A program made the position numbers and the translations under genes. From Zygnema cylindricum (lineage: Eukaryota; Streptophyta; Zygnematophyceae; Zygnematales; Zygnemataceae), in contig JBBHKE010000226.1 of NCBI GenBank assembly GCA_037447655.1, forward strand, positions 1-42,500: a stretch of 42,500 nucleotides of DNA, in the 5' to 3' direction. Position 1 is the first letter of the stretch. Every line of letters begins with the position of its first letter. Below, piece by piece: positions 2,933 through 29,884 of the stretch. Under the pieces are notes generated by a model, which saw nothing but the letters and a program-made list of their open reading frames with translations, made no database searches and was not told where the DNA came from.

Positions 2933-3960
2933 CTAATTCCTCTCACATGAGTTGGCAACCGAGCATTGGGCAAGGACCCTAGTTGCGACCCTCTGCAAGG
3001 TAGGTGTGACAGCCCCAAACCGCTGCCACCACTTACACGCTAATATCATCTTAACACACGCTATTGTTACCTCCCTCCCAAATACACCCTCAAAACCCCT
3101 ATGTTTTGTTAACTCAATGTAGGCCGCGGTCTGGTCTGCCACAAGCGGTAACATCCTCTGAAGGATAGTGTGGAAGCCTTGCGTGACTATTACACTCGTC
3201 TCTTGCCCATATTCAAAACTTTGCTACTCGGGATCAAGGACGAAGCCAGCTGCATGTATGAGGCTACAAGTCATCCCCCATCTAGCCAACCTAGATTCCT
3301 TTAACTCCTCTAAAACGTGCACTCTTTCGGAATAACCTTCTCCTCCATTAGTCGACATATTATTTAAGTATTGACCAATCAAGTGAAAACCATAATAAAC
3401 CTTTCCCACATTTGGGGCACCTTTGTCACACTCTCTCATCAATTGTACCACTGGCTCTGAAATTGTCACAATTTCTTTCACTCTTATCCAAAATCCCGGG
3501 TTCAAAATATGGCCTTTGATCTTCATCCCCTCGGATTTGTATGCAGGCTTGCCCATCCATTGCCTCTAGTCATAATCAAACATTAAATGCTCGAGGCTTT
3601 GATCAACTCTAAAAACCTTTGGAGCATAATTAAGTTTGTCGCGAACAGAGTCTCTCCAAGTTTCAAAAGTCGGAGTGTCGAGATTTTGTTGAAGATGGCT
3701 ACACTCATATTATGATTTGTGATAAATATCAACACCTCATTTGCCTCTTTGACAGGTGTCGAGATAAAAGACAACTTGCCCCAATCCTCCAATAACAGGT
3801 CGGAAATGTGGGCAAAACATGGCGTCCACGTTATAGAAAGGTACTTGCTCATGAGCAAGGAGGTTGCTATTTTGTTAACAGGAGCAGAATCTGTCACAAT
3901 TTGGACCACATGCTCCACCCTACCGCAAGAACTCCTTTCTCCAACACCTTACCTGTTGGA
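2933..3960 (-). pseudogene. hAT transposase, C-terminal half (broken)
   Basis: Three minus-strand pieces line up as the second half of a plant-type hAT transposase. Piece one (3918 to 3583) contains VEHVVQIVTDSAPVNK and WTPCFAHISDLLLEDWGK, resembling the 'VTDNA...WTPCxAHxxDLxLED' block of DUF659-type hAT proteins. Piece two (3556 to 3224) contains GFWIRVKEIVTISEPVV and ends HAAGFVLDPE. Piece three (3154 to 2933) contains CKWWQRFG, LAQCS and NSCERN, the hAT C-terminal dimerisation signature. Stops and frame changes separate the pieces. The N-terminal half lies at 4932-5697, beyond an interruption of about 1 kb. DNA binding and strand transfer are family functions; this copy cannot encode a continuous protein as it stands. 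Confidence 0.85.
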
Positions 3961-3964
3961 TTAT

Positions 3965-4931
3965 TAGATTTACAAAGTATTTTCTAGGTCTGAATAGCTT
4001 AAGGGAAAATAGAAAAAAAAAGCATATGCAGTTTGCCTCCAGCTCTTCCCTCTATCCCCCATACTTGTTGTAGTCACTGAAAGAAAGAGAGGGTGGTGGA
4101 GCCATGGCTGCCTTGGCTCCTTAGGCAGGTCAGATTACGTGACGTAAGTCACTTTTAACTAAAAAGTTGAGTTCGGCAGACTCGAACCTCCGACCGGCAG
4201 AGCGAGGCATAGCCATCAGCCTTAGCCAGTCTGTCGTTGAAGTCCGTTAGAGTACATGGGGTATGATTAGTATTTAAATGTGTCAGAATTCACTAGTCCG
4301 ATTAACGGAAGTATGGATAAGAAACTTAATAACAAAATGAAATATAGAGCAAAAGTGAAACCGCACAAAACAAATTTACCAGACATTGATTTTCAACGGC
4401 TAGCATTCAAAGCCGATTTGGATTCGATGGCACGCATCATCGCCGAGATCCCGTAATAGTCGCTTTGGCGGTTTTCTGGCTTGACATGACTTGGAGCCAC
4501 GTGGCAAGTTAATATTGGGTAGGAGGAATCCCAACGAGCGTGAGGGCGATTTCGGGGAGATAAGCGTCCACTCAATGGCCGAGTTGTACACAGACCGTAC
4601 AGAAAGTACACCGACCACAATACTTTCTGTACTTTATAGTTCTCTGATTGGTTCGTACATCAGTATATAGGGGTTGTGAGAGGGGTTTAGGAGTTAGGAG
4701 ATTTAGGAGGTAGCCGCCTCTCTCCCACTGAGTTTGTATATATTTTGGCATCTTTGCCACTTGATAACTAATTGCTTGGTTGGGCGTTTTCAATGATATC
4801 ATTTGATGCGGACTCAAGGGAGTCCAGACTGCACAAGGGTGCAGTCAGATTTCTTGTTTGCCTGCTTGGGTATCTGTGATCCTAGCTGAAGAAGGGTTAG
4901 CCAAAAACTATCTAAAGGCTTCCTGAATTTT
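3965..4931 (-). repeat. ~1-kb insertion or intron interrupting the hAT transposase
   Basis: On the minus strand the transposase frame is lost near 4931 and resumes near 3958 with VLEKGV, then VEHVVQIVTD. The intervening DNA carries a CCAAT-like block (about 4647-4656), a TATA-like ACTATAAAGTAC (about 4631-4642), the short palindrome TTTGGCATCTTTGCCA (about 4743-4758), and a tRNA-related segment (4005-4244). It ends in an acceptor-like CCAACAG. It could be an intron that gained a SINE, or a nested element. A related copy lies in opposite orientation at about 270-1215. Confidence 0.6.
4005..4244 (-). repeat. tRNA-related SINE-like segment, copy 2
   Basis: Read on the minus strand, the segment has a good A box (TGGCTAAGGCTGATGG, about 4213-4228) and B box (GGTTCGAGTC, near 4176-4186), then about 170 bp ending in a T9 run near 4013-4021. 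That layout, internal Pol III promoter plus T tract, fits a tRNA-headed SINE. The putative acceptor ends do not pair, so a functional tRNA is excluded. It is related to 946-1165. Confidence 0.6.
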
Positions 4932-5697
4932 TTAGTCCGATGGGGGACACAAAATTTCATTACGAACATATTTAGCATCTTTGCATTGCCCACTGGTGTT
5001 TTGCGCCATAAGAAACATGTCCCCCTTTGGGGTGACAGGTATAATGTTGAGGAGAGGCGTTTGGTCAACAACTGTCCAACCATCCGATGTGATAGTGGCA
5101 CCAGTGACCTTCATAGTCTCCATGTAACTGTGCAAATCGTTAGTTATCGTCTTCTTAGTCATAGCCAACAGACGAGTTCTCAGCCTATAACACTCCCCTA
5201 TCTCCGCAGTCAACTTTACCGCAACCTTAAAATAGTGGTCTGTGAATAGAGTGAATGGCAAGCCATTGGCAAAGAATACCTTGGCCCATGCTTTGTCTAC
5301 CTCCTTCTGGTTATGCTTATTGAAAGCATCTCGAATTTTTGTCTGCACCCGTTTCACCTTGTTGCTTTGGCTAGACTCGACAAGATGGCTAGAAGCAACA
5401 ACATTTCCAGTAAGTCGATCCAGAACGAATATTTTACGCTTTTGAGAGTCGTGAGAAGCCTTGTCAGTTTCCATTACACTTAACTCTAGCTTCACATAAT
5501 CCGGACATGATTTGCATGGCCTGATTCTTGCATTCTTCACGTCTCCTAAAAGGTGGTTCATAATCCTGGTGTCTTGTGCATTATACTCTAATTTCTAGTA
5601 CACACAAATGCACAATTTACATCCTCAAGTAAACCACCCGTTGGAGCTACAACATGCTCCCACTCTACTTCTCGAATCCTTGGCATGACATCGTTTA
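4932..5697 (-). pseudogene. hAT transposase, N-terminal half (unit A copy)
   Basis: Minus-strand reading starts near 5687-5697 with MPRIRE and VEWEHVVAP, followed by a frame break, then a 209-residue open segment (5561 to 4932). That segment contains HLLGDVKNARIRPC, like the second half of a BED-type zinc finger, and later ITSDGWT and LLNIIPVTPKGDMFL, which match the start of the DUF659-type region in plant hAT transposases. The canonical zinc-finger cysteines and histidines are only partly recognisable. The frame closes at 4932, where the interruption begins. The homologous copy at 11600-12022 keeps the N-terminal part in one frame, so the break near 5561 is specific to this copy. Confidence 0.82.
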
Positions 5698-6058
5698 CGA
5701 AGGTTCGCGGAGGCTAAAATGTGATTTCAATGGCGGCTACATTGGGGCTTCGATGGCGGCCACAATGCTGGCTTCGTGTCTTCGTGAGTTCCTGGTAAGG
5801 ACGAAAGGTCCAGAAGTCGAAATCTAATTCAAATTAGACCGCGGAAATGAAGTATATTTTTTAAAAAAAATTCGTACATACCGCCTGTCCGTACAATTTA
5901 CACCTATACTTTCGGTACGTCCGTACAAATACATTCAGTACAATCTGTCCGTACACGAAAACTATACGAAACTTACGAAAAGTTCAAAAAACCCAAAAAA
6001 TAACGCATAATCGTAAAATTTTCGAAATTTTAACGAATGAAACATCTATGGTTATTAC

Positions 6059-6600
6059 CCCAAACTGTACGATTTAGTAGGGCAAATATGAAATTTCTTC
6101 AATGTCGTTTACCCTATGATCAGAAAAAAATCATTTCACATGCCGGGAAAACAGGAACTTTATCTACTCTCCACGTTCGTACGGTAGAATTCCAAGCCGT
6201 ACTACCGAACTGTAATCGAAACCATAGTTCAAAAGTCGGCGTTTTTATGGTAGGCCTTTGGTCGGCGCCTTTATCGTAAGTTGTGTTATGGGCTTTCATG
6301 TGATCTTCTTAGATCGCTACTTTGATCAGCGACCGTCCGATCGTCCAAATCTTACGGTGTAAATAAATTTTTTTCGTCCGAATGTTTTAATTGGTACATA
6401 TACAGTACTGTAGAGTACATTACAGTATGACTGTACTGAAATGCAATGTTTCAGATCTTTTTGCACATTGAAGCGCTGTTGTACCGTATCGTACGTACGC
6501 CTAACGATTTTGAGGGCTGTGATGTCACCAATGTTTATAGAACTTCATGCGATTCTAAATTTGGTGACCATTACTTCTCTCCTCTCTCTCGCCTCAGGCC
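6059..6600 (+). promoter_or_regulatory. Upstream region of ZIP copy A
   Basis: This is the sequence between the hAT end and the ATG of the truncated ZIP copy. It has several GTAC tetramers (about 6395-6495), including CGTACGTACG. The bZIP-type palindrome present in unit B is mutated here to TGATGTCA (6520-6527). Relative to unit B, about 300 bp are missing near 6395. A pyrimidine-rich leader directly precedes the ATG. Confidence 0.45.
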
Positions 6601-9144
6601 ATGGCGTCGCCTACCTCGTCCTTGCTGCTCTATATCCTCTTGCTGATACCTTTTGCTTCAGCCCAGTGTTCACATGGAGGTAGGATTATTTTCTTTGCGA
6701 TGGGTTCTTCAGTGTTGTTTTTCTACCATAGAAAGATCTCCTGCTAATTTGTACAGTATTTCAACTTAGTCAGCCACCTAGTAACGTGGATCTCAATTGA
6801 AATTTGAATGTAAAATAATAATCCGGATTCTCATTGAAAGAAATCTAAGAACATGCACACAAATGACAACAACGAGCCCTATCTTTGCCAAGTATACAAG
6901 CTTTTTGCCTTTTTCAAGCTCATGTCTGATAAAGTCATGATCATAAACTTAAATGACAAGTTTCTGCTCATAACCAATATTGTCGTTGTGGATTCACCAA
7001 CTTTTTATTGATGGTTATCTAGTGATAGTTAAATATTATTCGCCAAATATTATCGTTTTTATTGTCCATGACACTATAAATTTAATCCTTTTACCCTAAA
7101 GTTGTGTAAATGGCACCAATTGTTTTTTTCTTAACGCTTATTCTTTAAGCGTTTTAAAACCAACCACGTCATTTGGAATTGAATTCGAATTAATAAGATT
7201 ATGTAATTCACACGCTAATAAATCCGTGACGATAATAACAATACATGTTGTAGCATGAGCGTCACGATCACTCTGGGGGATCTTAATTGTCAACTGAACT
7301 TAAACTCCTTCAGGTTCAAAAATCCGATTCTCCATGCACCCTCTTCAGATGTTTGAGTTGAAGTGAACTGTCTTACCTTTCGATGGGGAGAATGTGATGA
7401 AAAATTGGATTTTTACTTAGAAAGATAAACGGGTTTGAAAGGCGGTTCTTTTTTTCTTCACAATAATTCAATATTGCAACAAGGACTATTGAACAGACTA
7501 GGACCATACACACACATACACGCACACATTGTGACCAGGTTTACATTACTATATCATGATCATAGCTATGACCAGATTTACAGAACTATATCATGTTTAT
7601 TCCTATGAACATGATTATAATCACAACCACACATTTATAGTCATTCACCTCGTGTCCGTATCCTAACTTGGTTGCTACTGGTTATATAAGAAATGTCTTA
7701 GTGTATACCAATGTGATCATTCTCCCCATTTTTTTGCGCTTACACATAAACCGCAATAATTGCCAGAATAGCATTATGTGGATTACAAGCAGTCATATAA
7801 GCCTTTGTTTTAGATACAAGCGGTAATATGCACCGTACCATTGTCTTTCCATATTTTTTTGTTGTTGCAATGTACAAGACAATTTCCAACAGAACAATAT
7901 GCTATGGTTATAATGGTAAGCTGTCGTTACCTTCTTACATATGCTACGATGAGTTTGGTGGAATGATCCATTTTTTTTATCCAATGCTGAAATGATGACA
8001 GCTTGATTATAAATAATTCTTATGTATTTAGTGCTCTTGTAACAATGACCTTATTCAGATCATGATCATGGACATCACCATCATTTTGACGATCAACACG
8101 ATCACGAACATTCTGAAGTAATACATGACCATGATCACGACCATGGTCACGATCATATTGAACACGGAGAAGCTGCCTACCAATCACAAGCTGTATATGA
8201 GACCCATGATGACCTTGACCATGTCCATGACCATGACCATCATGACCATGGCCATGATCATGGTCATGACCATGGTCATCATGACCATCAAGGTCATGTC
8301 CATGGCGGTAGCTCGGACCACAAGCCGAAAAGCAAAAAACAAGGAGATGAGAATGTGCTAAGGCAACCGGAAGAGATGGCAGAAGAGATGGAACTTTTGG
8401 AGCATGGGTTCGAATTGGACGAGGAAGAATCGGACGAGTTGATTCACGGTCTTACTCTGACAGGTGGGAATTACTGTTCTTAGACTTGTTTTAAACCAAC
8501 GTAAGCCTGTTAGGTTCTGTCTGAAAGCTTTTTGTGCATGGTTATACTTGTTTTAACCTTCGGTATCCTATTTTTCTACGATGGAACTGAAGCTTTTTTG
8601 TTTCTGTTAAGCATGTTTAAACTTGTTGGATATTAGTTCCATATTACGAGTGTGTTTCCCTTGGGAAATTTTCTTACTTTAAAAAAGGCCACCTTTATTG
8701 ATGTTTTTTCTTTTTTTTTCCAAAAAGTTTTACTTGAGCATTTGAAAGCACTTGTGACTGAGAAATCTGGTCCCCGTAAATCTTATCTCGACGGAGAGTA
8801 AAATTGCTAAGGTTTCCAAGTTTTAATTCTTTTTCTTCTTTTTTTTGGTCTTTTTTTTCATTCGTTTTTTTGTTTTTGTTTTCTCTCCTTTTCCAGGACT
8901 CTGGGTCCGAGCAATGGGGAGTTCTCTTCTCGTCAGTCTCGCCTCTCTTATTTGTCTCAGTCTTCTTCCCTTTATTTCTGGTAACGATTGCTGATTATAT
9001 TGTCATGCTCTTTTCTTTATTTTAAACTATTTTACATCCTTCTATGGTTAGCATTGTAATCGACCGTTTTTCTTTTGTTAGTTTTGTAGGAGTTAGGGCT
9101 ATGTGTAGGGATTTGGCTCAAGGATTAGGACTTCTTTTGCTTTT

Positions 9145-9215
9145 CCGGCAATTTAAGCAATTTCAAGGCAATTTCAAAGCAATTTTTAAGCAATTTTTAA
9201 GCAATTTGAAATAAT
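9145..9215. repeat. Short GCAATTT-based tandem repeat in intron
   Basis: Six or seven units of about 10-12 bp built on GCAATTT(TTAA) lie just upstream of exon 4 of copy A. Unit B (about 15757-15810) has one fewer. Confidence 0.7.
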
Positions 9216-9296
9216 CGATATTTATTGTTGATGCAGCACATGGAAAAATGCCTTCTAGGGCTATCGTGGACGCTTTGGCAGCTTTTGGGGTTAGTA

Positions 9297-9715
9297 TTTT
9301 TTTTTCCTCTTTATATCAATATTGTATATGAAGAAGAGCTCAATTTTCTTTTACCTCTTTATATCAATATTGCATAAAAAGAAGAGTTCAATGTCACACA
9401 TAAAGAATAGTTGTTTCTTTTCCCTCTTTTTATTAATATTACATGTAGAGAGAGCTCAATGTTGTATTTAAAGGAGAGTTACTTTTTTGCCTTTCTATGT
9501 AAAGAAGAACGCAATATTACATTTGAAGGCGAGTAATTTTTTCCCTCTTTATGTTAATTATGACATGTAAAGTAGAATTTCAATATTACATTTGAAGGAG
9601 AGTTTTTTTTTGTCTCTTTATTTCAATACATGTAAAGGAGATCTCAATATTACATTTGAAGGAGAGTAATTTATTTCCCTCTTTATGTCAACAATTTCAT
9701 GTAAAGGAGAACTCT
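9297..9715. repeat. Degenerate ~65-bp tandem repeat in ZIP intron 4, copy A
   Basis: Units share CCCTCTTTAT, TCAATATTACAT, GTAAAGGAGA and TTTGAAGGAGAGT blocks. About six units are visible. The equivalent array in unit B (about 15897-16240) is shorter by about one unit. Confidence 0.75.
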
Positions 9716-10158
9716 AATTTTTGTGTTTATGGACTATGTGGTTCATCCTTAGCATTATTTTCAGGCTATTTGTACAATGGATATTTTATTAAGCAAACCT
9801 TCTCTAATTTTACAGAAAATTTAATGCAACATTTGTCCACATTCTTATCTCCGATCGTTTTTTATGCTCGAAAGTTAAGAATTCAAAACTATTTCACTTT
9901 TGAATTTTCGAGTATGGTTTTAATGTTTTCAACTTCTAGGAAAATTGTCTAAATGCTACAAGTTTCCGGAGGCTATTTGGATATGAGTGAAACATCCTTA
10001 TACTTTTTTTGGAATGTTGGAAAACAAACAATGTTTATTAATTTTGCCATCCACACTAAATTAGGAAAACGGTGAACTTTCATGTGACAAAAGCGGGGCA
10101 ACTATGTACACTCCATTGATCCAATTTTTGGTTATGTTATGAGTAGAGAGGGAGAGGG

Positions 10159-10176
10159 AGAGGGGGGGGGGGGGGC
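10159..10176. repeat. Poly-G tract (copy A)
   Basis: A run of G interrupted once, next to GAGAGGGAGAG. It is also found at about 16690-16707 in unit B. Both precede ZIP exon 5. Confidence 0.8.
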
Positions 10177-10469
10177 GGAGGGAAGGGAGATGGAAAGTTC
10201 ATATATTCGACAATGTTTTTTGTTTTTCGAATCCTGGAAGATCTTTTTCTTATTTTGCAGGTGGGAGCTATGCTTGGAGATTCCTTCTTTCATCAATTGC
10301 CTCACGCTTTTGGTCAGTCCTTCGCCTCGTTTCCATTTGCTCTTATTCAATAACTTACTCACATGAGGTTGTAAATAGTTTAAGATACAATTGTTAATCC
10401 TTGTTATGGTTTTCCTTTGTCAATTTTTTCGAAACATTATCTTTTTCGTAAGTGTTTCTTTGACCGCGA

Positions 10470-10470
<1 letters not shown>

Positions 10471-10517
<47 letters not shown>
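10471..10517. repeat. (CT)n microsatellite, unit A
   Basis: An uninterrupted CT repeat of about 23 units in the 5' part of ZIP intron 5, matched at 17002-17046 in unit B. Confidence 0.9.
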
Positions 10518-10521
<4 letters not shown>

Positions 10522-10552
10522 ACGTAAGACATAAGATCTTGTAAACAACAGT

Positions 10553-10679
10553 AATTAATAACGCTATTTAAGTACGTGGACCATAATCTGCCACGTCTCA
10601 GGTACTAAATTAGAATCAATAACGCTAATTGTTTTTTGACGCTATTTAATCCTTGACTCTAATAGCGATTGGCGGTGTA
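10553..10679 (-). mobile_element. 5'-truncated MITE at the duplication junction
   Basis: The segment ends with CTCTAATAGCGATTGGCGG and TGTA, the terminal sequence of the MITE family found at 26086-26282 and elsewhere. Its interior (GTGGACCATAATCTGCCACG) matches the interior of 26749-27113 and 29137-29342. The other end is missing. It occupies exactly the gap between the end of unit A and the start of unit B. Confidence 0.75.
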
Positions 10680-11599
10680 ACATAGAAACAAAATGAAATA
10701 TAGTGCGAAAGTGAAACTGTACGAAACAAATTTACGTGACATTGATTTTCAAAGGCTAGCATTGAAAGCCGATTTTGATCCGACGGCACGCATCATCGCC
10801 GAGATCACAGAATAGTCGCTATGGCGGTTTTCGAGCATGACATGACCTAGAGCCACGTGGCATAATAACATTGGGTAGCAAGAATCCCAGAGAGCATGAG
10901 TGCGAGTTCGGGGGAGACAGGCGTCCACTCTATGGCCAAGTCGTACATCAACCGTACAAAAAGTACACAATTACAGTACCTTTTTGTACTTTACAGTTCT
11001 CTGATTGGTTTGTACATTAGTAGATAGGGGTTGTGAGAGGGGTCTAGGACTTAGAAGAATTAGGAGGTAGTCGCCTCTCTCCCACTGAGCTTGTATATAT
11101 TTTGGCATCTTTGCCACTTGATATCTAATCGCCTGGATAGGCGTTTTTAGTGATTTCTTTTGCCGCGCACTCAGGGGAGTCCAGACTGCACGGGGCTGTA
11201 GTCAGATTGTTTGTTTGCCTACTTGGGTATCTGTGATCCTAGCTGAAGAAGGGTTAGCCAAAAACTATCTATAGGCTTCTTAAATTTTGTAGTCCAATGG
11301 GGGACATAGAATTGCATTACGAACATATTCATCATCCTTCCATTACCCACCGGTGTTTTATGCCATTAGAAACTCGTCCCCCTTTGGGGTGACAACTAGA
11401 ATGTTGAGGAGAGACGTTTGGTTAGCAGCTGTCCTACCATCTGATGTGGGTGGCACCAGTGACTTTCACAGTCTCCATGTAACTCTGCAAATAGTTAGTT
11501 ATCGTTGTCTTAGTCACAACCACCAGACGAGTTCTCATGGCATCTCGGTGGGGTAGCTTATAACATTTCCTTACCTCCGCAGTCAACTATACCGCAACT

Positions 11600-12399
11600 T
11601 TAAAATAGTAATGTCTTGGCCGATGCTTCGTCTACTTGCTTCTGGTTATGTTTATTGAAAGCATCCCAAATTTTTGTCTGCACCCTTTTGACCTTGTTGC
11701 TTTGGCTAGACTCGATAAGATGGCTAGACGCGACAACATTCCCAGTAAGTCGATCCAGAACGGATATTTTATGGTTTTGAGAGTCGTGAGAAGCCTTGTC
11801 AGTTTCCATTGCACTTAACTCTAGCTTCATATAATCCGGGTGTGATTTGTATGGCATGATTCTTGCATTCTTCATGTTTCCTAAAAGGTGGTTCCTAATC
11901 CTGGTGGCTTGTGCATTATACTCTAATTTCCAGTACACACAAATGCACAATTTGTTATCCCCAAGTAGACCACCCTTTGGAGCTATAACATGCTCCCACT
12001 CTGCTCCTCGAATCCTTGGCAAAGCACCGTTTACGAAGGTTCGCAGAGGCTAAAATGTGATTTCAATGGCGGCTACAGTGGGGCTTCCATGGCGGCCACA
12101 ATGCTGGCTCCGTGTCTTTTTGAGTTCCTGGTAAGGACGAAAGGTCCAAAAGTCGAAATCCAATTGAAATTAGACCGCGGAAATGAAGTAACGTATATAT
12201 ATTTTTTTAAATTCGTACATACCGCCTGTCTGTACAATTTACACTCGTACTTTTTGTACGTCCGTACAAATGCATTCAGTACAATCTGTTCGTACACGAA
12301 AACTATACGAAATTTACGAAATGTTAAAAAAACCCAAAAAATAATGCATAATCGTAAAATTTTCGAAATTTTAACAAATGAAACATCTATGGTTATTAC
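11600..12399 (-). mobile_element. hAT right end with transposase N-terminus (unit B copy)
   Basis: The minus-strand open segment 12022 to 11600 begins MPRIRGAEWEHVIAPKGG and continues through CICVYWKLEYNAQATRIRNH and LLGNMKNARI, a BED-finger-like region, to KIWDAFNKHNQKQVDEA. Further related sequence continues to about 11280 with breaks. The right terminal repeat ends at 12391 (AAACATCTATG) and is followed by GTTATTAC, the same octamer as beside unit A. The left half of the element is absent because the duplication breakpoint removed it. Confidence 0.82.
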
Positions 12400-12794
12400 C
12401 CCAAACTGTACGATTTAGAAGGGCAAAGTTAAAATTTCTTCAATGTCGTTTACCCTATGATCAGAAAAAAATCATTTCACATGGCGGGTAAACAGGAACT
12501 TTATCTACTCTCCACTTACGTACAATGGAATTCCAAACCGTACTATTGAACTGTGCTCGAAACCATTGTTCAAAAGTAGGCGTTTTTATGGTAGGCCTTT
12601 GGTCGGCGCCTTTATCGTAAGTTGTGTTATGGACTTTTCATGTGATCTTCTTATATCGCTACTTTGATCACTACTTTGATCAGCGACCGTCCGATCGTTT
12701 GAATCTGACGGCGTAAATAATTTTTTTTGGTCCTAATGCTTTAATTGGTCCAATTTTTTGTCCGAATGTTTTATTTGGTCCGAATAGGTCCGAA

Positions 12795-12888
12795 TACAAT
12801 ATGGGTCTTAAGGTCATACTGTATGTTTTGCATACAATATGGGTCTTAAGGTCATACTGTATGTTTTGCATACAATATGCATATTGTA
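12795..12888. repeat. 38-bp tandem repeat ending in a palindrome
   Basis: Two near-identical 38-bp units (starting at 12795 and 12833) contain GGGTCTTAAGGTCATACTG and TATGTTTTGCA. They are followed by the palindrome TACAATATGCATATTGTA (12871-12888). The block exists only in unit B. Confidence 0.88.
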
Positions 12889-13014
12889 TGGGCCTCACCT
12901 ACTTTTGAACTATGCTCGAAACTGCCAAAAGGTATGGAAAGACTATTTGTGGCATGCGCGGTTTATAGGCGTCCTGTTTATCCTGGCTCCTAAATCTTCC
13001 AAAATGCGCAAAGC

Positions 13015-13251
13015 GTACAGTATGTACTGTACGTACCAGCTGCATATACAGTACAGTACTGTACAGTACATTACAGTACGACTGTACTGAACTGCAATGT
13101 TTCAGATCTTTTTGCACATTGAAGCGCTGTTGTACCGTATCGTACGTACGCCTAACGATTTTGAGGGCTGTGACGTCACCAATGATTATATCACTTCATG
13201 CGATTCTAAATTTGGTGACCATTGCTTCTCTCCTCTCTCTCGCCTCAGGCC
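13015..13251 (+). promoter_or_regulatory. ZIP promoter region with dense GTAC sites and a bZIP palindrome
   Basis: Between 13015 and 13090 GTAC recurs about nine times (for example ACTGTACGTACC and CAGTACAGTACTGTACAG), with more at 13132-13150. GTAC is the core bound by SBP-domain metal regulators such as CRR1 and SPL7. TGACGTCA, a perfect bZIP palindrome, lies at 13171-13178, 73 bp before the ATG. Direct regulation is inference; GTAC is common in this window. Confidence 0.4.
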
Positions 13252-16200
13252 ATGGCGTCGCCTACCTCGTCCTTGCTGCTCTCTATCCTCTTGCTGATAC
13301 CTTTCGCTTCAGCTCAGTGTTCACATGGAGGTAGGATTATTTTCTTTGTGATGTTTAGGGCTTATTCAGTGTTGTTTTTCTACCATAGAAAGATCTCCTG
13401 CTAGTTTGTACAATATTTCAACTTAGTCAGCCACCTAGTAATGTGGATCTGAATTGAAATTTTAATGTAATATAATAATCTGGACTCTCATTGAAATAAC
13501 TCTAAGAACATCCACACAAATGACAACAACGAGTCCTATCTTTGCCAAGTATACAAGCTCTTTGCCTTTTTCAGGCTCATGTCTGATAAAGTCATAATCA
13601 TAAACTTAAATGTCAATTTTCTGCTCATAACCAATATTGTCGTTGTGGATTCACCAACTTTCTATTGATGGTTATCTAGTGATAGTTAAATATTATTCGC
13701 CAAATGTTATCGTTTTTATCGTCAATGCCACTATAAATTTAATCCCTTTAACCTAAAATTGTGTAAATGGCTCCAATTGTTTTTTTCTTAACATTTAAGT
13801 CTTTAAGCGTTTCAAAACCAACCACGTCATTTGGAACTGAATTGATTATATAATTCACACGCTAATAAATCCGTGACGATAGTAACAATACATGTTGTAG
13901 CATGAGCGTCACGATCACACTGGGGGATCTTGATTGTCAACTGAACTTAAACTCCTTCAGGTTCAAAAATTCGATTCTCCATGCACCCTCTTCAGATATT
14001 TGTGTTGAAGTGAACTGTCTTACCTTTCGATGGGGAGAATGTGATGAAAAATTAGATTTTTACTTAGAAAGATAAACGGGTTTGAAAGGCGGTTTTTTTT
14101 TCTTCACAATAATTCAATAGCAAGGAGGACAATTGAAGAGACTGGGACCATACACACACATACACGTACACATTATGACCAGGTTTACATTACTATATCA
14201 TGTTTATTCCTATGAACATGACTATAATCACAACTACACATTTATAGTTATGCACATCGTGTCCGTATCCTAACTTGGTTGCTACTGGTTATTTAAGAAA
14301 TGTCTTAGTGAATACCAATGTGATCATTCTCCCCATTTTTTTGCGCTTACACATAAACCGCAATAATTGCCAGAATAGCATTATGTGGATTACAAGCAGT
14401 CATATAAACCTTTGTTTTAGATACAAGCGGTAATATGCACCGTACCATTGTCTATCCATATTTTTTTGTTGTTGCAATGTACAAGACAATTACCAACAGA
14501 ACAATATGCTATGGTTATAATGGTAAGCTGTCGTTACCTTCTTACATATGCTACGATGAGTATGGTGGAATGATCCATTTTTTTTATCCAATGCTGAAAT
14601 GATGACAGCATGATTATAAATAATTCTTATGTATTCAGTGCTCTTGTAACGATGACCTTATTCAGATCATGATCATGGACATCACCATCATTTTGATGAT
14701 CAGCATGATCACGAACATTCTGAAGTAATACATGACCATGGTCACGATCATATTGAACACGGAGAAGCTGCCTACCAATCACAAGCTGTATATGAGACCC
14801 ATGATGACCATGACCATGTCCATGACCATGACCATCATGACCATGGCCATGATCATGGTCATGACCATGGTCATCATGACCATCAAGGTCATGTCCATGG
14901 CGGTAGCTCGGACCACAAGACGAAAAGCAAAAAACAAGGAGATGAGAATGTGCTAAGGCAACCGGAAGAGATGGCAGAAGAGATGGAACTTTTGGAGCAT
15001 GGGTTCGAATTGGACGAGGAAGAATCGGACGAGTTGATTCACGGTCTTACTCTGACAGGTGGGAATTACTGTTCTTAGACTTGTTTCAAACCAACGTAAG
15101 CCTGTTAGGTTCTGTCTGAAAGCTTTTTGTGCATGGTTATACTTGTTTTAACCTTCGGTATCCTATTTTTCTACGATCGAACCGAAGCTTTTTTGTTTCT
15201 GTTTAGCATGTTTAAACTTGTTGTATATAGTTCCATATTACGAGTGTGTTTCCCTTGGGAAATTTTCTTACTTTAAAAAGGCCACCTTTTTTGATGTTTT
15301 TTCTTTTTTTTTCCAAAAAAGTTTACTTGAGCATTTGAAAGCACTTGTGATTGAGAAATCAGGTCCCCGTAAATCTTATCTCGACGGAGAGTAAAATTGT
15401 TAAGGTTTCCAAGTTTTAAATTCTTAGATCTTTGGTTCGTTTTTCTTCTTTTTTTTGGTCTTTTTTTTCATTCGTTTTTTTGTTTTTGTTTTCTCTCCTT
15501 TTCCAGGACTCTGGGTCCGAGCAATGGGGAGTTCTCTTCTCGTCAGTCTCGCCTCTCTTATTTGTCTCAGTCTTCTTCCCTTTATTTCTGGTAACGAATG
15601 CTGATTATATTGTCATGCTCTTTTCTTTATTTTAAACTATTTTACATCCTTCTATGGTTAGCATTGTAATCGACCGTTTTTCTTTTGTTAGTTTTGTAGG
15701 AGTTAGGGCTATGTGTAGGGATTTGGCTCAAGGATTAGGACTTCTTTTGCTTTTCCGGCAATTTAAGCAATTTCAAGGCAATTTCAAAGCAATTTTTAAG
15801 CAATTTGAAGTAATCGATATTTATTTTTGATGCAGCACATGGAAAAATGCCTTCTAGGGCTATCGTGGACGCTTTGGCAGCTTTTGGGGTTAGTATTTTT
15901 TTTTCTCTTTATATCAATATTGTATATGAAGAAGAGCTCAGTTTTCTTTTACCTCTTTATATCAATATTGCATAAAAAGAAGAGTTCAATGTTACACAGA
16001 AAGAAGAGTTGTTTCTTTTCCCTCTTTATATTAATATTACATGTAGAGAGAGCTCAATATTGTATTTAAAGGAGAGTTACTTTTTTGCCTTTCTATGTAA
16101 AGAAGAACGCAATATTACATTTGAAGGCGAGTATTTTTTTCCCTCTTTATTTCAATACATGTAAAGGAGAACTCAATATTACATTTGAAGGAGAGTAATT

Positions 16201-16998
16201 TATTTCCCTCTTTATGTCAACAATTTCATGTAAAGGAGAACTCTAATTTTTGTGTTTATGGACTATGTGGTTCATCCTTAGCATTATTTTCAGGCTATTT
16301 GTACAATGGATATTTTATTAAGCGAACCTTCTCTAATTTTACAGAAAATTTAATGCAACATTTGTCCACATTCTTATATCCGATCGTTTTTTATGCTCGA
16401 AAGTTAAGAATTCAAAACTATTTCACTTTTGAATTTTCGAGTATGGTTTTAATGTTTTCAACTTCTAGGAAAGTTGTCTAGATGCTACAAGTCTCCGGAG
16501 GCTATTTGGATATGAATGAAACATCCTTATACTTTTTTTGGAATGTTGGAAAACAAACATTGTTTATTAATTTTGCCATCCACACTAAATTAGGAAAACG
16601 GTGAACTTTCATGTGACAAAAGCGGGGCAACTATGTACACTCCATTGATCCAATTTTTGGTTATGTTATGAGTAGAGAGGGAGAGGGAGAGGGGGGGGGG
16701 GGGGGGGAGGGGAGGGAGATGGAAAGTTCATATATTCGACAATGTTTTTTGTTTTTCCAATCCTGGAACATCTTTTTCTTATTTTGCAGGTGGGAGCTAT
16801 GCTTGGAGATTCCTTCTTTCATCAATTGCCTCACGCTTTTGGTCAGTCCTTCGCCTCGTTTCCATTTGCTCTTATTCAATAACTTACTCACATGAGGTTG
16901 TTAATAGTTTAAGATACAATTGTTAATCCTCGTTATGGTTTTCCTTTGTCAATTTTTTCGAAACATTATCTTTTTCGTAAGTGTTTCTTTGACCGCGA

Positions 16999-17050
<52 letters not shown>

Positions 17051-20000
17051 ACGTAAGACATAAGATCTTGTAAACAACAGTAAGAATTGTTCTTGAATAC
17101 CTGCTTAATTTTTGAACCAGGAATTTGTTAAATAATTATGTATCACCCTATCATGGCTATTACATATGCAAAATTTACTTGTGTTACCATGAGTAACCAC
17201 ATTTATTGTACGGAAATATGACAAATTGTTGGTGTTGTGAACCGTAATCGTACCATAATCATACCCTAATGGTACCATATTGGTACCATAATGGTACCTT
17301 AACGGTACCGTAATCGTACCAAAATCATGCCGTAATGTCACCGTAATTGCACCATAATCGTACCGTAACCGTACTGTAACCATACCGTAATCGTACCATA
17401 ATTACACCGTAGGCGTACCGTAATCATACCGTAAGGATACCGTAATTGTACTGTAATCGTACTGTAGTCATATCAGGATCTGTACTTTAATCATACCGTG
17501 TTTTCGCTCTTCGGAATGTATGATGTCGGTTTATCACCGATACGTCGATTGAGCCATATATAGTTACTTTTTTCTTTTCTCCCCCTCTCCCCTCACCCCT
17601 CCCCGCTCCCCTCTGCCTCTCTCTCCCCTTTCCCTCTCTGTCCCCTCTCCCTCCCTCCCAACCTCTCTCTCCCTCTCTCCCTCCTTGCCTCCCGCTTTCC
17701 CTCCAAAGGCAAACGGGAGGGAGAGGGAGAGTTAGGGAGGGAGAGAGAGAAAGAAGGGAAGCGGGGAGGGTAGAGAGGATATGGGAGAGCGCAAAGGGGC
17801 TAGGGAAGAGGGGAGAGGGTAGCGAGGAGAGGAAAGGGGAGACGAGAGATCCCTCCCTGCCACCTTCCCTCTCCCCCTCTCTCTCCCGGCTCTCTCTTCC
17901 CTCCTCCCAGTGAAAATGGAGGGTGGGGAGGGGGAGGAGGGGGAGAGGGAGAGTGAGGGGGAGGGGGGGACAGGGGGGGGAAGGAAGGGCAGGGGGAGAG
18001 GAGAAGGGCAAGGGGGAGTGATAGAGGGGGAGGGCTAGGGGGAGGGGGAGAGGGGAGAGGGTGTGGAGGATAAGGACGAGCGGAGAAGGGAGAGGGGAGA
18101 TGGGAGGAGAGGGAGTCATAGTGTGAGACCCAGAATGTCGAAACTGAGGTACTGAATCCGGTACTGAATACCGGATGTACTGTGTACCGCAAAATCGCAC
18201 AATCCGGCATGCTCCGATCTTCTGTTTTCAGTGAAAACCGTACCGCGGTGTACCGGATGAAGTTTGGTACGGTTCGCAACACTAGTAATTGTACATAGTT
18301 TTTGTATTTGTCGTTTTTGACTAAGCTCTAGTTTTTTTTTTGTCGTTTTTGACAAAGCTTCCCCCTAGCCTGGGTTCATTTCAGGTGCTGTAGGTATTTA
18401 AGAGTGATTATTTCACATTATAACGGGTACAAACTGGTGTAAATAAATTGTGTATTCAAGTCTCTATGGGATTTAGTATGCTTGCAGGAGATACTATTTA
18501 TAGCGGAAAATGACAAAGCATTTCTTTTTGTGAATACACACTAAAAAAAAGCAAATCCGGCATATGAAACTCTTTTTAAATAATGTAATACTGATAGTAA
18601 ATTTTGCTTTTATGTTATTCTTTTCTGTATGAAGTATAAAATCTGACACATCCTTTTTGGTCGTTCATTATACTTTTCACTCTTAAGTGTTAAATTTCGA
18701 CAGACGTTTTTTTTTTTTTACAGGTAGTGGAGGTGGCCATTCTCATGACCACGGAGAATCTCATTCAGAACACTCTCATTCACACTCTCAGTCTCCCTCT
18801 CACTCTCACTCACATTCTGACTCACATTCTCATTCTCATTCTCACTCCGAGAGTACAGCACCTGTTCACGCCCACTCTATTCAGGATTTGTCAGTGGGAA
18901 TTTCAGTTCTCGGTGAGTTTATCGCCCTTTTTTTATCGCTGTTTTTTTATCGCCGTTGTTAATTTATTGACTTGTTTGCATCTGTAGTTTATGTTCTTGC
19001 TGTTTTTTTTTTTTTTTCGTTTCTTTGTTATTTTGTTTTGTGTGCGTATTGTACTTTTTCGTTCCAGATGTCAAAACAATGACTTCTTTTTGGTATTGTT
19101 TGGTGTTTTGGGAGAAGGGCAGTTGGTATTTTGCTCTTCTTCATTGTGGAAAAAATCGTTCGAAAAGTTGAAAAACTGAATTCAGAAGGGAAAATCGTTT
19201 CGTTTGGTGGTCACAGTCACAGTCATAGCCATGGAAAAAGAGGTCATGTAGACTCACAATCACATTCCCATGAAAAAAAAGAGGAGGGAGAGGAGGAGAG
19301 TAAAAAGGACAGTGTGGAAAAGGACGGAGGAAAAGAAGTTAAGGAAGGGGAGGAAGAGTTGGTTAAGAAGGGGAAAGAAGCGGAGGGACTGGAGAAATTT
19401 GAAGAAAAAAAAGAGAAAGACGGAGAAGTTGCCGTAGGAAAGAAAGAAGGCGAGGGAGAGGATTGGGAGATCATGGGGGTCGAGAAGGGCAAAACTACTG
19501 ATGGTGAGAGAAAGGACGAGACTGAGAAAGGAGAGAGCGACGAGATTGAGATGAAGGAAAAGCCAAAAGATTCAACTTTACGAAGGAGGGGAAAGAAGTC
19601 AAATGAAGAGGGCGAAGAGAGCAAGAAAGGTTCCGAAGAAACCGAGAAAGAGTTGGTCGAAGATGAAGAATCAAAAAAGAAGGAGAAGAAGAAATCGAAG
19701 AAGGAGAACGAGGTAGTTGAGGAAGAAAAGGAAACAGAAAAAGATGAGTCAGTTGAGGTCCTTCCTGTAGCGAATGCCGGAATCTCGAATTCGACCAGTG
19801 CGTCATTAATGATTTTGGGATATTTGAATTTATTTTCGGATGGGGTTCATAATTTTACGGATGGAATGGCTCTCGGAGCGGCTTTTCTTCACCATGGAAC
19901 CGTTGGAGGGTGGAGTAGAATGCTCTTTATGTTGGCTCATGAGTTGCCCCAAGAGGTAAGCTCTTTTATTCCTTGAGAATCTTTTTTACACTTTTTTTAA

Positions 20001-24690: not shown

Positions 24691-24994
24691 ATTCATTTCA
24701 GCTTGAATTTCAAAGAGGCAAAATAGCTCCCAGTTGACGAGGAGAAGAATCGAACCTGCGACCTCTCAAAGGTCACCACGAAACCAGTTGATTTTATTCA
24801 GCTGGAAACTCAGAGTGACATAACTCCGACGCGTGTAGAAGAATAGGCTTAAACCCGCGACCTTTAAAGTCTCGCCATGACATTGATTCATTTCAGCTTG
24901 AAATTCAAAGGAACGGGCAAAATCAGGCGTTGAGAACGAGATTTGAACCGGCAACCTCCCATCGCACAAGAGTTCAAATCGAATGGTTGTAATA
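24691..24994 (-). repeat. Three ~100-bp tRNA-related (SINE-like) units in tandem
   Basis: Units at 24691-24790, 24791-24895 and 24896-24994 share (on the + strand) ATTCATTTCAGCTTGAAATT-like starts and, 45-60 bp later, an inverted B box: GAATCGAACCTGCGACCTC, CTTAAACCCGCGACC and TTTGAACCGGCAACCTC. Read on the minus strand, each gives a T-arm-like GGTTCGATTC block followed by a conserved tail. Unit 24691-24790 also has an A-box-like TGGTTTCGTGG. The array begins exactly at the 3' end of the tRNA-Sec and runs in the same direction. Confidence 0.7.
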
Positions 24995-25081
24995 CGCTCA
25001 CCAGGCCGAATCGAACGGCTCGGCCGCTAGGCCGCTACGGATTTGAAGTCCGCACCCGAGACCACTCGGGCTCAGTCGAGC
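24995..25081 (-). tRNA. tRNA-Sec (selenocysteine, anticodon UCA)
   Basis: The minus-strand transcript is 87 nt, the usual length of eukaryotic tRNA-Sec without CCA. Reading 5' to 3': acceptor GCTCGACTG; AG; D stem CCCGAG, loop TGGT, stem CTCGGG (6 bp); anticodon stem GCGGA, loop CTTCAAA with anticodon TCA (25046-25044), stem TCCGT; long variable arm CGGCC-TAGC-GGCCG; T stem GCCG, loop TTCGATT, stem CGGC; acceptor CTGGTGAGC; discriminator G. The 9+4 architecture, G73 and the blocks AGTGGTCT, GGGTGC, CTTCAAA, GTAG and TAGC match animal tRNA-Sec. The acceptor has an A-G mismatch plus a U-U mismatch; as I recall, the human tRNA has a mismatch at the latter position too. A TATA-like AAATAAATA sits about 24-32 bp upstream. 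There is no T4 tract directly after the gene; the first lies 74 nt downstream. Land plants are thought to lack this gene. Confidence 0.88.
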
Positions 25082-25104: not shown

Positions 25105-25113
25105 TATTTATTT
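25105..25113 (-). promoter_or_regulatory. TATA-like box upstream of tRNA-Sec
   Basis: AAATAAATA on the minus strand lies 24-32 bp before the tRNA 5' end. That is where type 3 Pol III genes such as tRNA-Sec and U6 carry their TATA box. No convincing plant USE or animal PSE element was seen further upstream. Confidence 0.45.
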
Positions 25114-25527: not shown

Positions 25528-28500
25528 ATGACGACAGCTGAAGTCGAACAAGTCGATTTTGAGCCTGAAGATGACGATCTTTTGGCAGAAGATATGCCTA
25601 TGGAGGAAGACCCTACTCCTCCTCCTCCCAAGCTGAAATCCACTATTACTGGAGCAGCGCCTCCTGCAGGAAACCCTAACACAAAAAAAACAAAAGGAAG
25701 AGGGTTCAAGGACCCTATGGACGTCGACAGGGGTGATCGGTACGGACAGTTTGAGAGTCTAGATTCTGCAGGAGGACCGGGACCTCAGAGATGTATCCTT
25801 TTCTTTTTTTTGTTTGTTTGTTTTTTCTGATTTTTTTACTGTGATCCGTAATTCTCTTGATAATGGTGGAAGTGGTGGAGAATTTTCGGTAAATAGGGTG
25901 TTGTGTATGTTTTGCAATTTAAGATGGTTGTGTTTTGTAGGATTAGGAGGTTTTTGGATTTGCGTTTTTTAGAATCTCTCTCTCTCTTTCTCTCTTATTT
26001 GTTGAGGTCTGGTAGTTGTTACTGCTAGTCAGTGATTTTCATTAACTTGGAAATCACACCAAAAGTACAATTTGTCCACATTAGATACCGCCCATCACTA
26101 AGTTTGTGAATTATTAGTGTTAACACTTTGTTTAAATTTACTACACTCCATTATAACACACCACGTGGCTCATTATTGGTCACTTAACTGGATAATGTTT
26201 TTAACACTAATTTATGAGTTTGGGTTAAAAAAAGCGCTCACTTGTATTCGAGTCATTAATTCTAACAGCGATTGGCGGTGTACACCTTACATTGCTGTAA
26301 GAATTAAATACACTAATTCGAGTGAAGGTCTTTTTGACCCAAAATTATAATTGGTGTTAATAACTCTACTTGTTTGGCTGGCCCACAATGAACGATGTGG
26401 CAAAGCATTTTTTAGTGTAGCTAATGTATCCGCTTTTACAGTCATAGTTCACGAACTCTTGTTGTAGCTCTAAGCTTTATTAGGGTACCCTTTTCTTTTT
26501 GTATTTTTTTTTCCATTACATTTTCTAATGGAAAAGTGAACTGTTTCGCTCCTGTAGCACTTGGTGCCGCAATAGTTTTAGCAGTTTTATTTCTTAACTT
26601 GATTTTTTTTTTAACACATCATTTATAATTTTGTTTCAAAAGCTGGTCTGTTTCACACCAAGTCATGAATAGGGGAAGGGCCAAGTGTATACCGGTAATT
26701 AGCTTGACCCACACTATTTTGTGTGCATTTGTCTCAAATTACTCACCGGTACACCACCCATCGCTATTAGTATTAATAACACTCGAAATGGTGTGAACAA
26801 CAATATTTAACGAAGTGGACTACAAGTTCTACAAGTTGCCACGTCTCCCTTCTCTAAATTAGTATTATACATTCTAATTTCGATTTTACACTAATATTTC
26901 CTTTACACTAAGCAGTTAAGCTTTTTCTGGGCAGTTATAGTACCTTTTTTTTCACTATGCATTTGCCCAATTTTAATGTGGGAGAGGCAAGACCTTTATC
27001 TTCCAATTTCTTGCCTCGAAAAAGAAAAAATGTATTTCATGGCTGAACGTAAAATTAAACACCTTAAATTGCCCAAAAAATGTTCAAAACTAATAACGAT
27101 GGGCAGTGTGGTAGTCTGGTATAGACGGATTGATATTCAGTGGTGTAATGTTGATCTGGCTCCCTCTCTTTTTCTTTTGCATTTTCCTTCGCATTTTCCT
27201 TTCCATTTTCTTTTACATTTTTTTTTTTGAACTTCTAGTTTCTTTCACCAGTAAATTACAGCTATTGAGGGTTGGATTGTTCTTGTGACGGGAGTTCACG
27301 AAGAGGCCCAAGAAGACGATATTCATGAAATGTTCGCCGAATTTGGAGAAATAAAGAATCTGCATCTCAATCTTGATCGTAGAACAGGTTTTGTGAAGGT
27401 ACGTGAAGCTTTTTGGAATATGGGGTTTTATATAAACGCTGGTTCTTTATAATCCTTATAAAAGGTTTACTACAGACGGTGCCATATCATTTTCTAGGAG
27501 AATATGAATCTATCACCTAAAATTTTTGATAGGGAAAAATCTTGTATGGATAAAGGACGGCTTCAAATTTTCGCATGGCTTACATATATTCCGAAGGATT
27601 TGTTGTATATAAGTTGGTTTGATCCCACCACTTTCATTTACATAAAAGTGCTCCAAAAAAGCCCTCCATAGAATAACCCTGTTTTTAAGAGGTTCAATAG
27701 TTTTTAATGATGGTGGTTTGACACGGTTATTCCTCTGTTGCTGTTCAAATTTTGTGAATTAGGTTTTATGTGAGAACCCTGTGTTTATAGTAATGTATTA
27801 TATGTAATATATCTGATATATCTAATGCACGTAGTATATTAAGATGTTGTTATTGTTGGTGGTTTGACAGGGTTATGCTCTAATCGAATACGAGAACAGG
27901 AAGGAAGCCCAGGCAGCCATTGACAGTCTAAATGGAGCAGATCTTTTGACGCAGACAATTGGGGTTTCATGGGCATTCAGCACTGGTCCAAAAGGGGCAC
28001 GACAGACCCGCAGGTACGTAACAGGGGTTTCATTGGTTGATTTAGTGTTTCAACGGTTTTTAGGGTTAATTCTGGTTACTGTTGGATGGATCTGGAAAAT
28101 GAGTGCGCAAAAAAACCCTATATCCCATGACCTATAAATGACAAGTAAAGTCTTGATAAAAAAAGGTGAAGACTGGTGATGAGCTAATGTGGAAGGAACA
28201 ATGAAGAAAAACAAAAATGAATCGAATACTAATTTCAGAATCAAAGTGAAGTTATGTAGTAGTGAAATCTGATTACAATGTGAAAAGGACCAAACTAGCA
28301 GGTAAACAAATGAAAGCAATAAATTTGAGTGCAAGACTGGTTGAGGATAATATAAGGTTTACTTGGTACTTAATGCCACGATCATCGTAAGCTTCAAAGG
28401 TAGTGAGAATATGTGACAGAGCAAAGAAGCTTAAAGCCGGCCTGCAGAAGGGATCTGTAGTATGTACGGACAAATTTGTGTTTTGAACCAAAATGAGCAA

Positions 28501-29884
28501 TTTGCTAGCGAGCAAAATACAAAATGCGACTTTTGTCCAAAAGCAGTGTAAATGATAAGTTTTCAAGCTGAAACGGCCATCACTCCTTCTGGGCCTTTTA
28601 AAGGACAGGGGTTGTTAATGCAACAGTTAGTTTTTCGAAAGAAAGCAATGCTCATCACTTTCACTTTCACCACACGTTCACATTTTGGGGTTTGTTTTTA
28701 CTGCTAAGTACAAAATTGCTGATCCGATTCACTGATTTGTCTCCTTTCGAGTCACGTTCAAATATGTGAATCTGTATGGTCTTTGTTAGTCCTCATCATG
28801 TTGTCTTTTTTTTTTACTCTCACTTTTTTGTGCTGGTAAACCGTTCACGCGTAGTGGTTCAAAGGAGGGAAAAATCTCTTTTGGGACTTTCATTTCCAGG
28901 AAATGTCATTGTTGTCGGTTCAACATGTTAACGAAGCAAATAGTTCTTGAACTGTGGTTACGGGCATGTGAAGTGAATTAGGATATTCAAGAATATGCCG
29001 AGTCATGTGAGGAGTTGTGTGCTAGAGATGTTGTTTATAATATTTTGTTGATTTGGGACACTTTTGTATGTGTAAATGTGGGTTCTGCAAATTTTGTCTT
29101 TTAAGATTTAGGTTTTTTTGTAGGTTCATCCTCTAGGTACACTGCTCATCGTTATTAGAGTTAACACTAACTCAGTCTTGACTTTTTTTGGCCGAAAATC
29201 ATAAAATAGTGTTAACAACACTGTTTAAGGGAGTGGACTACATTCTGCCACGTTTCCCTTGCACTAAATTAGTATTCTATATTTTAATTTTGCAGTAACA
29301 CTAATAAATCCTTAATGCTAATAACTATGGGCAGTGTTGGTAGTTGAAATTCACCTGTCCCATGATTGATATTAAGTGTACAACCATGGATTTTTGACGC
29401 CTCTTTTTTATTTGTCCATGTTATAGAATATGATTCACATTCAGTAAGAAATATGCAATGTTCTTCGATAACTCTTGTGGTCCTTATTCTCAGCTTTCTG
29501 TTTAAAAGTTTCTTTACACCGGTTCAAAAGTTAATAGTTTCATAATGATTTTAGCTGTCAAAGGAGGGGACATGTGACTTTTTCAACTTCATGGAATTTA
29601 CAGATTATCCAAATTGTTGAAATTCGATTATACAAATTGCTGAGATTTGTTTTACTTTTGTTGACACTCCAGTAGGCTATTAACTGTGGGTCTCGCCTAA
29701 ATGAAAAAAACAAACGGGGAAGAGTTAAGAGTTTGTGGGTTTCGTGAGTTTGCAGGTTTTGTATTTTGTTGGTTTCGAGTTTTTTTTTCGGTTTTGTTTG
29801 GTTAATTATTGCTTTTTAGTATCTGATTTTTCTCCTGATTTATGCCCCTGGTTTTGCAGAACGGAGAGAAGAAGAAATTATTGA
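25528..29884 (+). CDS. Y14: Y14 (RBM8A), exon junction complex RNA-binding protein
   Basis: Four exons: 25528-25792, 27262-27398, 27871-28013 and 29860-29884 (570 nt, 189 residues plus stop). All are GT-AG. The acidic N-terminus ([14 protein letters not shown]) and the [10 protein letters not shown] and YGQFESL blocks match Y14 proteins. [20 protein letters not shown] opens the single RRM (about residues 90-170), with RNP2-like IVLVTG and RNP1-like RTGFVKGYALIEY, ending [12 protein letters not shown]. The tail is short and basic ([12 protein letters not shown]). With MAGO, Y14 forms the EJC heterodimer deposited on spliced mRNA upstream of exon junctions; it acts in nucleus and cytoplasm in localisation and nonsense-mediated decay. 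Length agrees with human (174) and Arabidopsis (about 200). The last coding exon has only 25 nt and follows a 1.85-kb intron; it is supported by frame and tail type. Introns 1 and 3 carry MITEs. Confidence 0.94.
26086..26282. mobile_element. MITE in Y14 intron 1 (first of two)
   Basis: It begins ATACCGCCCATCACTAA and ends CTAACAGCGATTGGCGG followed by TGTA, an imperfect inverted pair. The interior contains CCACGTGGCTC. The family recurs at 10553, 26749, 29137, 30663 and 36881. Confidence 0.7.
26749..27113. mobile_element. MITE in Y14 intron 1 (second)
   Basis: It begins GTACACCACCCATCGCTATT and ends AATAACGATGGGCAGTGTGG plus TA. The interior GTGGACTAC and TGCCACGTCTCCC block is shared with 29137-29342 and 10553-10679. 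It is longer than its relatives, so it may contain an insertion or be composite. Confidence 0.65.
29137..29342. mobile_element. MITE in Y14 intron 3
   Basis: The ends GTACACTGCTCATCGTTATT and GCTAATAACTATGGGCAGTG are inverse to each other. The interior matches the other members (GTGGACTACATTCTGCCACG). Confidence 0.72.

Follow-up and report, generated by a model that had tools for sequence, protein, structure and literature searches.

Machinery for selenocysteine (Sec) incorporation has been reported from all classes of streptophyte algae, two zygnematophycean genomes included, and it is reported as absent from the genomes of land plants and as lost in them (Liang et al. 2019, PMC6627142). Transcriptomes give a patchier picture: selenoproteins were found in 15 of 40 Zygnematophyceae, desmids yielded none, one or two of them, and the state of desmid genomes was called open (PMC6627142). 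A survey of algal selenoproteomes records selenoproteins for Klebsormidium and also, on the basis of EST data, for other streptophytes (PMC7539508). One expanded selenoprotein orthogroup is mentioned in PMC11096116, which also describes the genome of Zygnema cf. cylindricum SAG 698-1a_XF (359.8 Mb in 3,587 scaffolds).

The tRNA dedicated to Sec (tRNA-Sec) carries the discriminator base G73 in all three domains, and this base is essential, according to PMC5330540. The same paper documents how easily such genes are miscalled in plants. On 31 Viridiplantae genomes without selenoproteins, the specificity of the Rfam model RF01852 was 74.2% and that of ARAGORN 41.9%, and both ARAGORN and tRNAscan-SE produced many false positives in land plants (PMC5330540). 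A contrary account lists tRNA-Sec in 22 scanned species, including flowering plants, and gives its mean length as 72.93 nt (PMC7678280).

Here we describe a tRNA-Sec gene in a stretch of 42,500 nucleotides (the window; positions 1-42500 of contig C171) of a Zygnema genome that comprises 352,776,454 bases in 2,689 contigs, together with searches of that genome for the partners such a tRNA would need.

Identity and fold of the tRNA gene

The sole tRNA gene called by ARAGORN in the window is a tRNA-SeC(tca) on the minus strand, 87 nt long, at positions 24995-25081. When the window was compared with Rfam by cmscan, RF01852 was the single match at gathering threshold; it reached 74.5 bits against a gathering score of 47 (E 1.3e-13) and covered positions 1-91 of the 91 in the model. 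A permissive scan of the window (E up to 1) returned 66 matches, and none of the 65 besides tRNA-Sec attained its gathering score. The majority of these lie around 8.2, 14.8 and 17.6-18.0 kb, where the sequence is rich in repeats.

The pairing table gives a cloverleaf with nine acceptor and four T-stem positions. Standard pairs occupy all six positions of the D stem (TGGT loop), all six of the anticodon stem (CTTCAAA loop), all five of the variable stem (TAGC loop) and all four of the T stem; the discriminator is G73. The acceptor stem has standard pairs at seven of nine positions, the exceptions being A6-G and U8-U. The human tRNA-Sec gene agrees at 63 of 87 positions, shares the U8-U mismatch and lacks A6-G. 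The Zygnema gene thus unites the features of eukaryotic tRNA-Sec: a full-model score above the cut-off, the 9/4 fold, a 6-bp D stem, a long variable arm, the anticodon UCA and G73. On the level of sequence and predicted fold, we regard the presence of a eukaryotic tRNA-Sec gene at 24995-25081 of the minus strand as confirmed. An earlier note, made from the letters of the window, had arrived at the same identification and proposed a covariance-model search as a check, and the score well above the gathering score bears it out. The T stem, D stem with 4-nt loop, variable loop, anticodon loop and G73 it described all agree with the pairing table. It had also seen the A-G acceptor mismatch and had left the second one, U-U, unnamed.

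String searches of the flanks located a TATA-like ATAAATA at 25105-25111 (minus strand), about 30 bases upstream of the gene, and the first T4 run at 24919-24922 (minus strand), at +73. These are a candidate upstream element and a candidate terminator for RNA polymerase III, and may act in initiation and termination, respectively. Downstream of the tRNA-Sec gene, within 24845-24952 of the minus strand, two B-box-like stretches occur, GGTTCAAATC and GGGTTTAAGCC. ARAGORN calls no tRNA around them; possibly they are remnants of tRNA genes.

Search of the whole genome for tRNA-Sec

The RF01852 search of the whole genome, which went on to score 53 out of 18,828 first-look candidates, gave three matches at E <= 0.001, and the gene at 24995-25081 was the sole one reported above the cut-off in the 352.8 Mb. 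The other two matches (L002 and L003) scored 41.7 bits, below the cut-off, and were rejected: ARAGORN calls them tRNA-Ser(CGA), and the general tRNA model RF00005 gives 61.8 bits. Under RF01852, the tRNA-Sec gene outscores these confusable tRNA-Ser genes by 33 bits. Among control genomes, RF01852 matches appeared in all 14, mostly below the cut-off and above it in five.

Partners in Sec synthesis and delivery

Protein families were searched across the genome exon by exon, with 0 to 4 candidates scored per family. For the Sec-specific elongation factor eEFSec, the model PF21131 scored 32.1 bits (cut-off 27), while being silent in 14 of 14 control genomes. With tblastn, nine matches were obtained at E < 1, of which six lie in collinear order on one contig of 594.5 kb (C2570) and follow residues 420-594 of human eEFSec, with E from 1.4e-6 to 0.096 each. 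A match to euk_SelB_III on the first of these collinear exons reached 18.5 bits, below the cut-off of 27. The joined translation aligns with solved eEFSec at E 1.9e-37 and covers the C-terminal third only; the 13.5 kb read up to the end of this contig yielded no N-terminal exon.

For SecS, the enzyme family PF05889 matched an exon on the 10.8-kb contig C853 at 37.8 bits, and a second stretch of this contig reached 12.9 bits, below the cut-off, in a frame scan. Two exons correspond to residues 163-188 (54% identity, E 6.1e-7) and 188-234 (53% identity, E 2.1e-13) of the human protein. By our reading, they have splice sites that connect them in one frame, and the second alone matches six solved SepSecS sequences, the best at E 1e-9. 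Pfam scan, tblastn and a search for minus-strand motifs found no further SecS exon on C853, so that the gene is incomplete there. Taken alone PF05889 is unspecific, since it passes its cut-off in the Bacillus subtilis control and on a decarboxylase of the Zygnema genome; the case for SecS therefore rests on the alignments. Both the eEFSec exons and the SecS exons have uninterrupted frames and, as far as reading shows, splice sites.

Within 9007-9150 of C853, the closing residues of the second SecS exon (FAPRAVDK) appear again a little downstream, at 9036-9007, where the contig is rich in repeats. The decarboxylase was rejected as a second SecS-family match (L005): reading and homologues show it to be an Orn/Lys/Arg decarboxylase. 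It forms an uninterrupted frame of 655 aa at 604-2571, and its best relative, at 78%, is followed by others that include land-plant and Mesotaenium sequences.

The genome search for SecS and eEFSec, which the earlier note had suggested, thus recovered two SecS exons and the C-terminal-third exons of eEFSec beside the tRNA-Sec gene. Absence of all Sec machinery, named there as speaking against the gene, is not what this genome shows.

Selenophosphate synthetase and selenoproteins

The selenophosphate synthetase model TIGR00476 (selD) found no candidate in the Zygnema genome, one model being set against intron-split genes; it had matches in 13 of 14 control genomes. In the Rdx family (SelT/SelW/SelH, PF10262), two candidates were scored without a match at E <= 0.001. 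The glutathione peroxidase (GPx) family PF00255 gave three candidates and one match, a Cys form. The gene to which this match belongs, at 2410-4366 of contig C1579, has four or more exons, is of plant type and encodes Cys at the active site. No selenoprotein was therefore found in the two families tried, GPx and Rdx. Absences of selD, of selenoproteins and of single exons weigh little, because short exons were searched one at a time.

Genomic neighbourhood and affinity of the host

The gene nearest to tRNA-Sec is a four-exon Y14/RBM8A gene at 25528-29884 of the plus strand, divergently oriented and 446 bases apart. Its exons, delimited by sequence reading with in-frame joins and by homologues, lie at 25528-25792, 27262-27398, 27871-28013 and 29860-29884, the last one including the stop codon. 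The UBP1-like RNA-binding gene that had earlier been taken for the neighbour is present by reading, about 10 kb off; the place next to tRNA-Sec belongs to Y14/RBM8A instead.

Elsewhere in the window, 4331-10554 and 10687-17083 form a tandem duplication with a unit of about 6.3 kb, the two being 86-98% identical in five pieces. By reading, the duplication carries a His-rich coding-like stretch (HGHDHGHD) of a kind seen in zinc transporters. Minus-strand frames at 3224-5594 and 11600-12049 resemble, by reading, a hAT-type transposase.

A homology search with the Y14 protein returned a best match of 88% identity over 100%. The Mesen1 protein, a label which we take to denote Mesotaenium endlicherianum, followed with 68% over 99% and Closterium with 62% over 99%; named liverworts also rank high, with 71-72% identity over 92%. 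A tree was built from 32 rows, the window protein plus 31 of 120 listed matches. In it, eight rows (the window protein, its 88% match, Mesotaenium, Closterium and four further rows) are split with support 97/93 from 24 others, namely all 15 named land plants used and nine further rows. Within the smaller set, the window protein and its 88% match join Mesotaenium with a support of 88/74 that falls short of firm. Three rows of this set, Mesotaenium and two others, were marked as long branches, and in the tree as a whole 12 of 29 inner branches are open. The protein ends in ERRRNY, as do the Mesotaenium protein and the 88% match. The RSRSP tail seen for example in Calypogeia is missing from it, and from Riccia Y14, too. 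Y14 thus likely places the host in Zygnematophyceae and opposes land plants, one small protein being thin evidence for a class.

Closterium was considered as the host and set aside. Besides the 62% identity of its Y14, its codon usage is said to resemble that of Chlamydomonas (PMC5736609). Codon usage in Chlamydomonas is G+C-rich, whereas in the Zygnema genome the third-position G+C content (GC3) is 0.38 in Y14, 0.44 in the eEFSec exons and 0.51 in the SecS exons.

Discussion

Our observations are best explained by a nuclear tRNA-Sec gene of a likely zygnematophycean alga, which is predicted to be transcribed by RNA polymerase III and to deliver Sec to recoded UGA codons; we hold this explanation to be very probable. 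The gene is probably functional, as far as function can be predicted. By analogy to the known eukaryotic pathway, RNA polymerase III would transcribe it, and SerRS would add serine to the tRNA, which has both G73 and a long variable arm. PSTK would then phosphorylate this serine, and SecS would convert it with selenophosphate to selenocysteine. Finally, eEFSec and a SECIS-binding protein would bring the tRNA to UGA codons of SECIS-bearing mRNAs. Counted against this explanation, among other points, is that the first T4 run comes no nearer than +73.

The most serious competitor is a decaying Sec system, in which the tRNA-Sec gene survives without serving any longer, part of the machinery or all selenoproteins having gone. 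The A6-G acceptor mismatch, absent from the human gene, fits such decay. The search results point the same way, with no selD candidate, no Rdx match, a Cys form as the sole GPx, and just two SecS exons, located on a short contig. So does the published record, in which only 15 of 40 transcriptomes from Zygnematophyceae had selenoproteins and desmids had at most two (PMC6627142). On the other hand, the four remaining arms of the tRNA are fully paired, and a drifting pseudogene would tend to lose pairing. Reading shows the eEFSec and SecS exons to be open and to have splice sites, and the negative searches, with their short exons and 0 to 4 candidates scored per family, are weak. We therefore judge decay to be unlikely; the A6-G mismatch and the missing pieces leave a small chance of it. 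A more specific version, a Sec system caught in mid-loss in the sister group of land plants (the acceptor stem weakened, eEFSec kept, SecS broken, SPS and selenoproteins gone), appears doubtful to a similar degree.

Three further explanations fare considerably worse. A land plant with an unexpected Sec relic, one of two possibilities raised in the earlier note, could appeal to the liverworts near the top of the Y14 list. Yet Y14 groups with Mesotaenium and Closterium, outside the set that contains every named land plant used (97/93), and ends like the Mesotaenium protein rather than with the tail of Calypogeia (a tail missing in Riccia, too). Sec machinery is moreover reported absent from land-plant genomes (PMC6627142), so that a land-plant relic is unsupported and very improbable. 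About equally improbable is a contaminant from another eukaryote: we found no point in its favour, and just 446 bases separate tRNA-Sec from a streptophyte gene with introns on one contig, eEFSec being on a contig of 594.5 kb. Contamination, which had been named as a possible ground for refutation, is thus unlikely. A chance resemblance or a misread tRNA-Ser, comparable to the false tRNA-Sec calls that general tRNA finders make in plants, might draw on the specificities of RF01852 and ARAGORN on selenoprotein-free Viridiplantae genomes (74.2% and 41.9%, PMC5330540) and on the RF01852 matches that every one of the 14 control genomes gave, most of them below the cut-off. It is nevertheless the least probable of all and practically negligible, given that one and the same model assigns 41.7 bits to the two tRNA-Ser genes and 74.5 to tRNA-Sec, that the latter has a 6-bp D stem with 4-base loop, the 9/4 fold and G73, and that eEFSec and SecS exons are present in the genome.

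Of the other possibility raised earlier, a streptophyte alga that kept selenoproteins, the algal half is supported by the tRNA-Sec gene, the eEFSec and SecS pieces and the Y14 tree; for the selenoprotein half, the two families tried yielded none. As retention of the machinery in such algae has been published (PMC6627142), most of the surprise falls away: a tRNA-Sec gene in an alga of this kind is expected and, against the published background, ordinary. The finding of tRNA-Sec with eEFSec and SecS pieces in the likely algal sister group of land plants fits a loss of Sec at the land-plant base. It adds one genome to the published pattern and overturns nothing, and it shows where the last selenoproteins may be sought.

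Compared with known systems, the Zygnema gene resembles eukaryotic tRNA-Sec (RF01852 and the human gene) in its 87 nt, 9/4 fold, 6-bp D stem and CTTCAAA anticodon loop. With the human tRNA it further shares the TAGC variable loop, G73 and the U8-U mismatch, and differs from it by one additional acceptor mismatch, A6-G. The genome as a whole is near to that of Zygnema cf. cylindricum SAG 698-1a_XF in assembly size (352.8 Mb here, in 2,689 contigs) and in inferred class. With its tRNA-Sec gene and its eEFSec and SecS exons, this likely zygnematophycean genome resembles the streptophyte algae whose Sec machinery was described by Liang et al. 2019 (PMC6627142).
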